A stretch of 64,000 nucleotides of DNA, from the NCBI RefSeq assembly GCF_030378205.1, contig NZ_CP127385.1:2272001-2336000 (forward strand). The letters are read 5' to 3'. Below are positions 8,328-46,993 of the stretch, one piece after another (position 1 is the stretch's first letter; each line of letters opens with the position of its first letter). The notes beneath the pieces are model-generated. The model saw only the letters and a program-made list of their open reading frames with translations, did not search any database and had not been told where the DNA came from. Both the position numbers and the translations under genes were made by a program. Source of the stretch: Bradyrhizobium sp. NP1 (GTDB lineage: Bacteria > Pseudomonadota > Alphaproteobacteria > Rhizobiales > Xanthobacteraceae).

Positions 8328-8513
8328 GGCGGCCCCCACTGTCTCTGTGCGGCCTAAGCGAACCTTGGAGACGACGGAGACTATACCACTTTCTTTGGTG
8401 GATGGCACCTACGGGCGTTGGAACGTCTGTCGGCCGCTCGATACAGCCGGGTTGGACGTTTAACGCGCTTGATCCAAGCTGCTCTGATTTATGAGGACAC
8501 GGCCTAGTGTGGT

Positions 8514-8672
8514 GGTTCGGAAGTTCTCTTCATTTGTGCTGCGAGTTCGTCAAGAGAACTTCCGAACCAAAAACCAAACTAGAACCATAAATTTGCTAGT
8601 GTCCCTTTGAACCCGAAGTTCGCAAAAAAAGCCCGCCGCAAAATGATGCGAACTTCGGATTCGGGGCACTGG
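8514..8672 (+). repeat. Structured dispersed element, copy 1
   Basis: Non-coding element of 159 nt in the 361-bp gap between two minus-strand genes. Hairpin 1 is a perfect 17-bp stem (8514-8530 with 8552-8568) and its 21-nt loop contains GCGAGTTC. A 27-nt spacer carries ACCATAAATTTG. Hairpin 2 has a 10-bp stem (8596-8605 with 8663-8672, two G-T pairs), a TTT bulge (8606-8608), a 16-bp stem with one C-A mismatch (8609-8624 with 8647-8662) and a 22-nt loop. Copies 2 (26992) and 3 (45907, minus) have the same plan. The rest of the gap (8328-8513) shows nothing recognisable. Confidence 0.8.
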
Positions 8673-16457: not shown

Positions 16458-16599
16458 ACCCTCCCCTGGAGGGGGAGGGTCGATCGCGAATGAAATGAGC
16501 GATCGGGGTGGGGTGACATCTGCTTCGACGATCTCACCCCACCCCGTCTCACATTTCGCTTCGCTCATGTGAGCCGACCCTCCCCCTCCAGGGGAGGGT
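16458..16599. repeat. Nested long inverted repeat
   Basis: Two perfect 24-bp arms (16458-16481 and 16576-16599, built on ACCCTCCCC...) enclose a second 12-bp inverted repeat (16505-16516 with 16534-16545, GGGGTGGGGTGA). The whole 142-bp unit can fold into one long cruciform or hairpin. It fills most of the 281-bp gap between the DUF1499 gene and the acyl-CoA synthetase gene. It has the look of a dispersed rhizobial repeat. Confidence 0.85.
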
Positions 16600-26474: not shown

Positions 26475-26912
26475 TTGGCGATCCGCCCGGCCGGCGCGGC
26501 GGCTGCAGTGATTCTAATCGGTGTTGGCGTCTCCGGCTGCAGCTTTTCCCGCGGCGACGGCGGTCCGTTCGCCAGCGCATCGGACAAGGACGTGACCGGG
26601 GCGGTCGGACCGGCCAAGCCGCCGCCGAGCCCGACCGAGAGCGACCTCGCCTTTGCCCGTACCGCGGCCTCCGACGTGCTGACCAAGGGGACCAAGGATT
26701 CCAGCCAGCCCTGGCAGAATCCGGAGACCGGGGCCCGCGGCTCGGTGACGCCGCTTGCGCAGTCCTATGCCGCCGATGACGGCCGGACCTGCCGGGATTT
26801 CCTCGCAAGCTACGTCAATGGCACCACCGAAAGCTGGCTGCAGGGCGCCGCCTGCAGGAGCGAGCAGGGCCGCTGGGAAATCCATACGCTGAAACCCTGG
26901 CAAAAGGGTTGA
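26475..26912 (+). CDS. RT0821/Lpp0805-type surface lipoprotein
   Basis: Exported lipoprotein of about 145 residues. A lipobox (VSGCSF) follows a hydrophobic stretch. The mature part resembles the 17 kDa antigen-like outer-membrane family (RT0821/Lpp0805): GARGSVTPL, DDGRTCRDFLASYVNGTTESWLQGAACRSEQGRWEIHTL. The start is uncertain: no ATG lies close to the signal peptide, so I use an in-frame TTG (26475); the nearest in-frame ATG is 26352, overlapping the divergent pdxH start. Function is unknown. Confidence 0.75.
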   Translation: MAIRPAGAAAAVILIGVGVSGCSFSRGDGGPFASASDKDVTGAVGPAKPPPSPTESDLAFARTAASDVLTKGTKDSSQPWQNPETGARGSVTPLAQSYAADDGRTCRDFLASYVNGTTESWLQGAACRSEQGRWEIHTLKPWQKG

Positions 26913-26991
26913 ACCGGTCGGCATCTGTCCGTCCGGGGCCGTCCGCCCGTTGCAGAAATGCCACGGAGTCCCCAGATGAGGGCAGTGGAGT

Positions 26992-27149
26992 GGATTTGAC
27001 ATTCGCCACCCGGGAGGGCGCGAGTTCCTGGGGCGAATGCCAGATCCAAACCCCACTGGAAACATATATTTGCTGGTGGTTCTTTGATTCCAACATTCGC
27101 AAGCATGGATGCCGAAACGGGAATGCGAATGTTGGAATCGGACCACCAG
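26992..27149 (+). repeat. Structured dispersed element, copy 2
   Basis: Non-coding element of 158 nt, 59 bp upstream of the dnaJ-type gene, in a 296-bp gap. Hairpin 1 is a 16-bp stem (26992-27007 with 27032-27047; 14 Watson-Crick pairs, one G-T, one mismatch) with GCGAGTTC in its loop. A 25-nt spacer carries AACATATATTTG. Hairpin 2 has a 10-bp stem (27073-27082 with 27140-27149), a TTT bulge (27083-27085), a perfect 16-bp stem (27086-27101 with 27124-27139) and a 22-nt loop. The geometry is identical to copy 1 although most stem bases differ. Confidence 0.8.
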
Positions 27150-27208: not shown

Positions 27209-28174
27209 ATGCGCGACCCCTATGAGGTCTTGGGGGTGCCGCGGAGCGCCACCGCTGCCACGATCAAGAGCGCCTATCGCAAGCTCGCCAAGAAGCATCA
27301 CCCCGACAGCAACAAGAACGATCCGAAGGCGGCCGCGCGGTTTTCCGAGATCAACTCGGCGAACGAGATCCTCGGCGACGAGGACAAGCGCAAGCAGTTC
27401 GACCGCGGCGAGATCGACGCCGAAGGCAAGCCCCGTTTCCAGGGCTTTCCGGGCGGCGATCCGCGTGCCGGCGGGGCCGGCGGCTTCCGCAGCTACAATT
27501 TCCGCACCGGCGGTGGGCCGGAAGGCGCGGGCGGCGGCGCCGCCTTCGAGGACATCCTCAACAGCATGTTCGGCGGGGCCGCACGTGGTGCGGGCGCCCG
27601 GGGCGGACGCTCCAGTCCGTTTGAATTCGACACGGGCGGTGTCGGGCTCGACCTCGACCTCTCGGTCGCCATGACCGTGTCGCTGGAGGAGGCGGCGCGG
27701 GGTGGCGAGAAGCGTATCCGGCTGCCGAACGGCAAGGAGCTCAACGTCAAGATTCCGGCCGGCGTCGTCGCCGGCCAGCAGATCCGGCTGAAGGGGCAGG
27801 GCGAGACCGCACCCGGTCACCCGCCCGGCGACCTCCTGATCACCATCAACATCGCCCCGCACCCCTACTTCAAGGTCGAGGGCAGCGATCTGAGGCTGGA
27901 CCTGCCGATTACGCTCTACGAGGCGGTGCTCGGCGGCAAGGTGCGGGTGCCGACGCTAGGCAACGCCGTGGAGCTCTCGATCCCGAGGAACACCTCGAGC
28001 GGTCGGACTTTCCGGCTGAAGGGCAAGGGCCTGCCGCAATCGGGCGGCGGTGCGGGCGATCTCTTCGTCACCACGCGGATCATGCTGCCCGACGGGAACG
28101 ATGCCGAGCTCGAGGCGTTGATGCAAAAGTGGCGGGACGCACACCCCTACAATCCGCGCAGCGCTCTCGGCTGA
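27209..28174 (+). CDS. DnaJ C-terminal domain co-chaperone (CbpA type)
   Basis: Hsp40 co-chaperone of 321 residues that stimulates DnaK. The J domain covers about 2-65 with HPD in KKHHPDSNKND. A Gly/Phe-rich linker (about 70-125) follows, then two C-terminal substrate-binding domains. The Cys-rich zinc-finger region of DnaJ is absent, which makes it CbpA-like. GAAGGAG lies 8 bases before the ATG. Structured element copy 2 ends 59 bp upstream and could lie in its leader. Confidence 0.92.
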   Translation: MRDPYEVLGVPRSATAATIKSAYRKLAKKHHPDSNKNDPKAAARFSEINSANEILGDEDKRKQFDRGEIDAEGKPRFQGFPGGDPRAGGAGGFRSYNFRTGGGPEGAGGGAAFEDILNSMFGGAARGAGARGGRSSPFEFDTGGVGLDLDLSVAMTVSLEEAARGGEKRIRLPNGKELNVKIPAGVVAGQQIRLKGQGETAPGHPPGDLLITINIAPHPYFKVEGSDLRLDLPITLYEAVLGGKVRVPTLGNAVELSIPRNTSSGRTFRLKGKGLPQSGGGAGDLFVTTRIMLPDGNDAELEALMQKWRDAHPYNPRSALG

Positions 28175-45839: not shown

Positions 45840-45906
45840 GCTGCGTTCCTGCTCTTCTGGCGGCCTGGAATCAAAGGGCTGTTTGCGGGCGTATTGTGGC
45901 GGCCGG

Positions 45907-46057
45907 CCCGCGGTCCAGTTGTAACATTCGCTCCCCCACTTCCGGGCACGCTTCTGCCGACGTTAGAATCAAAGAACTACCAATAAATCTAAAATTCTAG
46001 TGGAGTTTTTGGTCTGTTTCACGAACTTGCGGCCGGCCCGGAGGGAATGTCAAATCC
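45907..46057 (-). repeat. Structured dispersed element, copy 3 (diverged)
   Basis: A 151-nt element on the minus strand between the HDAC-family gene and xseB. Blocks shared with copy 2: GGATTTGACATTC (identical), CACTAGAA for CACTGGAA, GGTAGTTCTTTGATTC for GGTGGTTCTTTGATTC, and GCGAATGTT then TGGACC. Block spacings in the hairpin 2 part (50 and 15 nt) equal those of copy 2, so the 10-TTT-16-22-16-10 geometry is kept, but the 16-bp stem now has five mismatches. The two GGCCGGCCCG direct repeats (45901-45910, 46031-46040) may be chance. Confidence 0.65.
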
Positions 46058-46063
46058 GCTCCG

Positions 46064-46993
46064 TCAGGAGCCCATCAAGGCTGTGACGTGGGCGGCAACC
46101 GACTCCTTCAGGCCCTGAAGGTCGTAGCCACCCTCCAGCACGGACACTACCCGGCCGCCCCCGCTCGTCCCGGCGACATCCATCAGCTTGCGTGTGACCC
46201 AGCCGAAATCCTCGGCCTTGAGGTTCAGCGACGCCAGCGGGTCACGATAATGTGCGTCGAAGCCGGCCGAGATGATAACGAGCTCCGGGCTGAATTTCCG
46301 CAATTGCGGCAGGATCAGGTTCTCGAAGGCGGAGCGGAACTGGGCGCTGCCGTCTTCCGCGGCGAGCGGCGCGTTGACGACTGTGTCGTGCTCGCCGCGT
46401 TCGCCCTTGGCGCCCGTGCCGGGAAACAGCGGCATCTGGTGAGTCGAGCAATACATCACGCTGGCATCGGACCAGAAGATGTCCTGCGTCCCGTTGCCGT
46501 GATGGACGTCGAAATCGACGATCGCGGCGCGTGCGATGCCGTATTTGCGCTGCGCGTGGCGCGCGGCGATCGCCACATTGTCGAAGAAGCAGAAGCCCAT
46601 CGGCCGCGCGATCTCGGCGTGATGGCCGGGCGGGCGGATTGCGACGAAGGCATTGTCGTTTGCGCCGGACATCACCGCATCGGTCGCGGCGATCGCGCCG
46701 CCGACGCCGCGCATGACGGCTTCCCAGGTGCCGGGCGACATCGACGTATCACCGTCGATGTAAACGATGCCGCTGTCGGGGGCGATGTGGCGAAGCTCGC
46801 CGACGTAATGCTCGTTATGGCAGAGCAGGACGGAATCGAGATTGCCTTCCGGCGCCTCCCGGCGCACCAGCGGATCGAAGCGCGCTTCCGACAGCACTTC
46901 GGCAATCGCGCGCAGCCGGTCAGGCCGCTCGGGATGGCCGGGCGGGGTGAGATGATCGAGGCAGGCCTTGTGAGTGAGAAGCAACGTGCTCAT
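46064..46993 (-). CDS. Histone deacetylase family protein (class II-like amidohydrolase)
   Basis: Zinc-dependent deacetylase of 309 residues in the HDAC/acetylpolyamine amidohydrolase superfamily. Active-site segments: RPPGHHAEIARPMGFCFFDN (tandem His), IVDFDVHHGNGTQDIFW (zinc Asp and His), FPGTGAKGE, SAGFDAHYRDPLA (second zinc Asp) and LEGGYDL (catalytic Tyr). The substrate in bacteria may be acetylpolyamines or acetyl-lysine proteins and cannot be fixed here. The same-strand xseB gene starts 225 bp beyond its stop, with element copy 3 between. Confidence 0.93.
   Translation of the reverse strand: MSTLLLTHKACLDHLTPPGHPERPDRLRAIAEVLSEARFDPLVRREAPEGNLDSVLLCHNEHYVGELRHIAPDSGIVYIDGDTSMSPGTWEAVMRGVGGAIAATDAVMSGANDNAFVAIRPPGHHAEIARPMGFCFFDNVAIAARHAQRKYGIARAAIVDFDVHHGNGTQDIFWSDASVMYCSTHQMPLFPGTGAKGERGEHDTVVNAPLAAEDGSAQFRSAFENLILPQLRKFSPELVIISAGFDAHYRDPLASLNLKAEDFGWVTRKLMDVAGTSGGGRVVSVLEGGYDLQGLKESVAAHVTALMGS

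Follow-up and report, generated by a model that had tools for sequence, protein, structure and literature searches.

The window, by which we mean the whole stretch of 64,000 nucleotides of Bradyrhizobium DNA that was analysed, carries three copies of a structured repeat. Two of these had been described in an earlier note, at 8514-8672 and 26992-27149. Both copies are real: the sequence contains the two hairpins, the TTT bulge, the GCGAGTTC loop and the linker, and the hairpins fold strongly. The true element, however, is longer (8504-8672 and 26982-27149), because hairpin 1 has an additional 10-bp outer stem and an A-rich bulge. The count of two also fell short, as the window holds a third, eroded copy on the minus strand. 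Copy 2 is flanked by an ORF ending at 26912 on one side and by a dnaJ-like ORF at 27209 on the other. The features are as follows.

8504..8672, plus strand: copy 1, whole element, 169 nt, subfamily A (190.5 bits with model R1, which was built from copy 1)
8504..8528, plus strand: left terminal repeat of copy 1 with the CTAG start, equal to the 5' arm of hairpin 1 (family alignment; a 25-nt outer arm, as in the IS ends described below)
8514..8568, plus strand: inner stem and loop of hairpin 1 of copy 1, with GCGAGTTC in the loop (folding)
8569..8572, plus strand: A-rich bulge of hairpin 1 of copy 1, in the inner arm (sequence and alignment)
8583..8595, plus strand: linker of copy 1, AACCATAAATTTG (sequence and alignment)
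8596..8672, plus strand: hairpin 2 of copy 1, with the TTT bulge at 8606-8608 in the inner (5') arm (folding)
8648..8672, plus strand: right terminal repeat of copy 1, with a GANTC site (GATTC) at 8658-8662 (sequence)
26982..27149, plus strand: copy 2, whole element, 168 nt, subfamily B (sequence; covariance-model match)
27060..27072, plus strand: linker of copy 2, AAACATATATTTG (sequence)
27073..27149, plus strand: hairpin 2 of copy 2, with the TTT bulge at 27083-27085 and GANTC sites at 27086-27090 and 27135-27139 (sequence and folding)
45905..46067, minus strand: third copy, eroded (29.7 bits, E 9.1e-6, covariance model)

Hairpin 1 consists of 10 bp, an A-rich bulge in the 3' arm, 15-17 bp and a loop of about 21 nt. 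Hairpin 2 is its structural mirror image, with 10 bp, a TTT bulge in the 5' arm, 15-16 bp and a loop of about 22 nt. The linker between them is mostly 13 nt long (12-15 nt in the 52 copies of the window's genome with intact borders). Typical copies start and end with CTAG, and copies 1 and 2 span from one CTAG-like tetranucleotide to another. Among 40 copies hand-picked for diversity (alignment A5), the outer arms measure 25 nt on both sides in 38, one of the two 24-nt outer arms being that of window copy 1, which lacked one base as entered. Each inner arm has 2-4 extra nucleotides in all 40. The four hairpins of copies 1 and 2 have fold z-scores of -5.2 to -7.1, and for each of them 0 of 200 shuffles were as stable. 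Element length is 160-172 nt in 103 of 105 copies in alignment A3, 72 of 79 in A4 and 36 of 39 in A6, some of the short rows being cut by contig ends. The element is small and has no transposase gene, which fits a MITE. Elsewhere in the window, at 16458-16599, two perfectly matching inverted arms of 25 bp (ACCCTCCCCTGGAGG...) are separated by 92 nt and enclose a second inverted repeat.

A covariance model built from the two copies gave at least 150 places in the 7,712,921-base genome of the window (E 1.1e-42 to 1.7e-9; 150 of 431 candidates scored), which bears out the earlier description of a dispersed structured element. The outer arm of hairpin 1 occurs 201 times in this genome with up to 2 mismatches, against a single occurrence of the reversed control. 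The model matches the opposite strand as well, since hairpin 2 mirrors hairpin 1. In the search that included congener G010, match counts cover both strands of one place (the 14 matches in G010 are 7 places). Alignment A3 started from 175 matches, counted over both strands, of which the best 150 were used; removal of opposite-strand repeats left 105 copies and removal of one Aminobacter copy left 104, to which the figures for the window's genome refer unless stated otherwise. Their pairwise identity ranges from 0.51 to 0.98 (median 0.69), and at least four stem subfamilies can be told apart by eye, with stems that differ from one subfamily to the next and are internally paired in each. Short derivatives with the outer arms only also exist. 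Those at L166, L168, L169 and L175 have one common internal junction (by eye) and may represent a mobile short form, and two further short forms (34 nt and 36 nt) resemble deletions. Shorter relatives of 130-133 nt were seen at L429 (1501-1632) and L439 (1501-1635), and are possibly intermediate towards two-armed repeats of about 110 nt.

Pairing is conserved to a very high degree. Standard pairs fill 5049 of 5187 pair cells (97.3%) in the 104 copies, and Watson-Crick cells number 4946, compared with 4054 +- 18 in shuffles. At 25 of the 50 pairs there are two Watson-Crick types that differ in both bases, and each type is found in 3 or more copies. In the 40 diverse copies, 36 of the 50 pairs change on both sides, in agreement with the covariation claimed from copies 1 and 2 alone, and the covariation score is 0.465 versus 0.154 +- 0.007 in shuffles. 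Shuffles ignore the relatedness of copies; controls in which the pairing was slid, which keep it, pair at 29-40%, versus 96.7% for the true pairing. Hairpin 1 and hairpin 2 match each other as well: they have identical bases at position 7 in 97 of 104 copies (55 G/G, 41 T/T, 1 C/C), and at the inner variable position 62 copies have C/C and 34 have A/A.

Covariation this strong, together with such stable folds, would ordinarily suggest a cis- or trans-acting RNA (a riboswitch, an sRNA or a stabiliser of 3' UTRs) whose fold is selected at each site, and the earlier note had favoured an RNA read from the plus strand on the basis of a T-G wobble bias. That bias is present but weak (103 G-T/T-G versus 80 A-C/C-A cells, about 1.7 standard deviations by hand), and such a slight excess agrees with an RNA. 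So does the pace of stem evolution, as the stems change at 0.25-0.50 of the rate of the unpaired parts, even between close copies, and two-sided changes exceed the expectation under independence (2 vs 0.34, 1 vs 0.30, 6 vs 0.73, 20 vs 4.5 and 31 vs 8.8), the closest bin having 0 where 0.16 was expected. The ratio of one-sided to two-sided stem differences points the other way. In bins of disjoint closest pairs of copies, it was 16:0, 22:2 and 16:1 in the three closest bins and 49:31 in the most distant, i.e. recent stem changes are mostly one-sided. In our interpretation, individual copies decay, and compensation was built up in the source lineages. Covariation alone, even when massive, is no proof of an RNA role at each site, because copies share amplifying ancestors; a transposon family can thereby imitate a functional RNA. 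Since stems change slowly and two-sided changes exceed independence, constraint or repair may nonetheless act on the fold within copies, and we count this against the MITE reading developed below.

The copies lie mainly between genes and favour neither strand. At 127 loci in the window's genome, 105 copies are intergenic and 17 extend across the edge of a predicted gene by more than 30 nt, with the other 5 left unclassified. With genes taken from a simple purpose-made caller, the gaps that hold the element are 62 tandem, 23 divergent and 20 convergent, and those of the control gaps are 59, 26 and 27. Relative to tandem neighbour genes, the element lies on the same strand in 30 cases and on the opposite strand in 28 (n = 58, p = 0.90). 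A terminator or promoter role for copy 2 was looked for and none was found; at copy 1, a single minus-strand site within the element resembles a terminator (mean of 0.4 in shuffles), and a single site that resembles a promoter lies beyond the element's borders (mean of 0.1 in shuffles).

The boundaries of the element are those of a transposon. Congener G010 carries seven copies that are 98-99% alike, sit in unrelated flanks and run from CTAG to CTAG. One of these insertions can be compared with the relative G004, whose empty site retains both flanks around a single CTAG; for another, all 5 relatives compared have CTAG at the left junction (a one-sided comparison, as the right flank is not common to them). 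The target is rare, with 106 occurrences of CTAG versus 669 expected in 207 kb. All 18 aligned congeners lack copy 2 at the corresponding site, which is too diverged in them for the target to be read. Tandem copies with one common CTAG look like insertions at the edge of an older copy. An empty site for the Aminobacter copy was sought in plasmids and none appeared among the 20 listed of 324 records. At G123:C52 ~315832-316097, the CTAG site that is empty in G004 and occupied in G010 is also filled, but the insert seems to be reversed and contains about 99 additional nucleotides.

These boundaries at CTAG, together with IS630-type ends, the random orientation, gap types similar to those of the controls and the predominant one-sidedness of recent stem changes, speak against the proposed plus-strand RNA with a fold that matters at each site. 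The distribution also counts against an RNA, with about 200 outer arms in the window's genome and 0-5 pattern matches in nearly all congeners. A search of Rfam 15 gave no match above the gathering score, and the earlier statement that no known riboswitch is recognisable thus holds. A riboswitch or sRNA was rejected on the grounds of the Rfam comparison, strand neutrality, context and transposon boundaries, and we regard selection of an RNA fold at each site as very improbable.

The outer arms are ends of the IS630 type, which the earlier note had not recognised as IS ends. We scanned 265 genomes of the genus with the terminal-repeat pattern and found matches in 85, many of which, in the loci inspected, are the ends of an IS of about 1.2 kb. 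All fetched loci together yielded 19 IS copies of 1196-1221 nt with both ends fitting the terminal pattern of the element; the spacing common to IS and element is so by construction, because the IS copies were found by that pattern. The transposases at L181 and L186 belong to DDE_3, and that of L181 matches NF033545 (IS630) with an E value of 9.5e-78. Three loci (L259, L267 and L270) were reached through a DDE_3 search without the terminal pattern. In the 104 copies, right outer arms agree with an IS end at 15-22 of 25 positions and left outer arms at 13-19, compared with a mean of 11.2 and a maximum of 19 for control arms shuffled behind CTAGTG, and the A-type right end differs from an IS end at 2 of 25 positions (by eye). 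The G-type arms fit the known IS ends less well, and no IS with G-type ends (CTAGTGG..), as in the commonest subfamily of the window's genome, was present among the fetched loci.

A PF13358 search for an IS630 transposase in the window's genome gave 0 matches, and DDE_3 had no match in the high-copy genome G081 or in G222 (72% complete). Since no IS630 transposase was found there, the mover in these three genomes would be absent or of another type. DDE_3 matches number from 1 to 45 in G224, G225, G010, G015, G123 and G025. The 45 belong to G025 (L255, L268 and others), where several fetched loci have CTAGTA-type ends. At L203:1092-1525, two IS630-type ends lie only about 430 nt apart, probably as an internally deleted, non-autonomous IS derivative with another layout.

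We conclude that the element is very probably a MITE, i.e. a non-autonomous DNA transposon of about 168 nt that is mobilised in trans by IS630-family transposases. Such a transposase would bind the two outer 25-nt arms, which are the terminal inverted repeats, and excise the element, which would then insert at a CTAG and leave CTAG on both sides, presumably through the TA duplication typical of the IS630 family. The inner arms resemble the same repeat with an insertion of 2-4 nt that may stop them from acting as ends. In each hairpin, one such repeat is paired with an inverted counterpart. The fold would be kept mainly in lineages that are still amplifying, and each new copy would decay thereafter. 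Besides the possible constraint within copies and the IS630 transposase that was not found in the window's genome, G081 and G222, further points weigh against a MITE: only one two-sided empty site was found, duplications of TA and of CTAG look identical in sequence, the G-type arms fit less well and no IS with such ends turned up among the fetched loci, and some of the short forms may be deletions in place.

Single-stranded hairpins moved by a Y1 tyrosine transposase (RAYT), as in REP and REPIN elements, offer a different route to mobility. The two mirror-image bulged hairpins do resemble an inverted REP pair, and the window's genome has two similar Y1 (RAYT-like) genes (L136 and L137; G000:C1:1466708-1467004 and 5441865-5442161), near each of which an inverted repeat was observed. 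Neither 3.3-kb Y1 locus, however, contains CTAGTG or CACTAG, the element ends in CTAG where the tag described for REPs is GTAG (PMC3733652), and the terminal repeats and target fit IS630. The unlinked Y1 genes and the CTAG ends led us to reject a RAYT/REP origin, to which we attach scarcely more than a marginal probability.

The element extends well beyond Bradyrhizobium. A pattern for the linker junction matched at least 117 stretches in named GTDB genomes. Among the 80 matches listed are Bradyrhizobium (pachyrhizi, oropedii and uaiense), Hyphomicrobium, Afipia, Pseudolabrys and Pseudaminobacter, as well as Sphingobium, Sphingopyxis, Acidiphilium and Acidisoma, so that at least three orders (Hyphomicrobiales, Sphingomonadales and Acetobacterales) are represented among the matches listed. 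Of these 80, 62 loci were checked and all 62 carry the element, a few of them cut by contig ends. New is that one plan (a bulged hairpin, a linker of about 13 nt and a mirror-image bulged hairpin) occurs across three orders, often with a GANTC in the right repeat. Presence is patchy: at E <= 1e-8 and with stricter filters, the element was found in 18 of 385 sampled genomes of the class, 17 of them besides the window's genome and in 12 other families. Within the genus, pattern matches (IS ends included) number 132 in the window's genome, 105 in G081, 136 in G224, 20 in G222, 11 in G225, 7 each in G010 and G123, and 0-5 elsewhere. An Aminobacter plasmid bears one copy, and element matches occur in 4 of the 20 listed of 324 plasmid records (two Martelella, one Agrobacterium and one Ochrobactrum).

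Sites for CcrM (GANTC) are a recurrent feature. The window's genome has 1.88 GANTC per copy versus 0.69 in mononucleotide shuffles, and copies in other families have 2.33 versus 0.63. They lie mainly in the hairpin 2 stems and at the junction of hairpin 1 and linker, with about 29 matches in the hairpin 1 loop region of some window-genome copies. The right repeat has a GANTC, nearly always at position 11, in 69 of 104 window-genome, 5 of 12 congener, 21 of 27 other-family and 41 of 79 pattern-selected copies; in the left repeat it is rare (0/104, 1/12, 1/27 and 6/79, respectively). A junction GANTC is present in 32 of 104 window-genome copies, 1 of 12 congeners and 10 of 27 copies from other families, while the 68 of 79 in alignment A4 are biased because the search pattern required it. 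The IS copies have a GANTC in exactly one end in 19 of 19 cases, many being close relatives, and this is partly by construction, because the pattern used to fetch 16 of the 19 loci required G at position 11 and T at position 14 of one end (the IS end search pattern required GA at 11-12). At L259, L267 and L270, which came from the DDE_3 search and of which the last two are alike, GANTC is likewise at one end only.

One could suppose from these sites that the element has been domesticated as a CcrM-linked, CIR-like repeat that is retained for its part in chromosome or cell-cycle functions of the host and owes only its origin to transposition. The enrichment of GANTC over mononucleotide shuffles would agree, as would the general plan of CIR as it is described (two arms and a linker, GANTC, an intergenic position and Alphaproteobacteria as hosts; PMC2229807). 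A repeat kept by its hosts is hard to reconcile with presence in 18 of 385 genomes of the class, with pattern matches that range from 0 to more than 100 within one genus and with copies that decay, and we give this proposal almost no weight against a MITE.

That GANTC stands mostly in one terminal repeat suggests cell-cycle control of the transposition of the MITE, and we hypothesize a role for methylation of this site. Dam sites link the transposition of IS10 to the passage of the replication fork. Transposition of the element might be selected for structure: the double bulged hairpin would be required for mobility, and, as in IS10, the one-repeat CcrM site of IS and MITE would tie transposition to fork passage. 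The fold, e.g. as a cruciform or in single-stranded form, would present the outer ends and hide the inner ones through their 3-nt offset. If true, this would explain why covariation extends across orders despite rewritten stems, and it could supply the missing mobility mechanism for CIR-type repeats. We consider this combination rather unlikely, its odds being lowered because the one-end GANTC of the IS is partly by construction.

The closest known systems share parts of this plan. RUP of Streptococcus pneumoniae is 107 bp long, has 108 copies and combines terminal repeats like those of IS630-Spn1 with TA-containing sites; the element resembles it as a gene-free short repeat with IS630-like terminal repeats and a TA-containing insertion site, but RUP is described as one stem-loop closed by its ends, whereas the element consists of two mirror hairpins and a linker, measures about 168 nt and occurs class-wide (PMC2229807). 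CIR (CcrM-associated intergenic repeats) of Caulobacter, about 110 bp, is similar in architecture, with two stem-loop arms and a linker, GANTC, intergenic location and alphaproteobacterial hosts. By the same description it carries GANTC at the terminal loop and is listed without terminal repeats; the element, compared by description only, has terminal repeats, is about 168 nt long (two of the 39 A6 copies are 130-133 nt) and has its GANTC mainly in the hairpin 2 stems and at the hairpin 1/linker junction (PMC2229807). YPAL/RU-2 and ERIC of enterobacteria are likewise MITE-like, structured intergenic repeats, and YPAL is of similar size at about 168 bp; as described, YPAL is set apart by its hosts and by ends without TA, and the account of YPAL/RU-2 and ERIC gives no mirror double hairpin (PMC2229807). 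Br-REP1 and Br-REP2 are also dispersed palindromic repeats of Bradyrhizobium but differ in consensus sequence and size, and no IS link is given in their description (PMC5082802).

According to the 2007 review, the mobility mechanism of two-armed CIR repeats needs more information (PMC2229807), and the element makes such a mechanism testable. A repeat family of three alphaproteobacterial orders is here described by one plan and tied to IS630. Our literature search, which covered titles and the starts of abstracts and included few subscription journals, turned up no description that we recognised as this element, which may have been named before.

The Rhizobium intergenic mosaic elements RIME1 and RIME2 are intergenic repeats of rhizobia with two large palindromes and a length of about 108 bp. 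Like the element, they are two-palindrome intergenic repeats in rhizobia; by this description they are shorter. About 45 nt from the element copy on the Aminobacter plasmid pSR3 lies a two-palindrome repeat of about 106 nt (L031:3214-3320) with GAATC in a loop. Its sequence differs from that of the element, and it could be either RIME1 or a CIR. Matches confined to this 106-nt repeat occur in 14 of the 20 plasmid records listed (324 in all), and all 14 are from Rhizobium.
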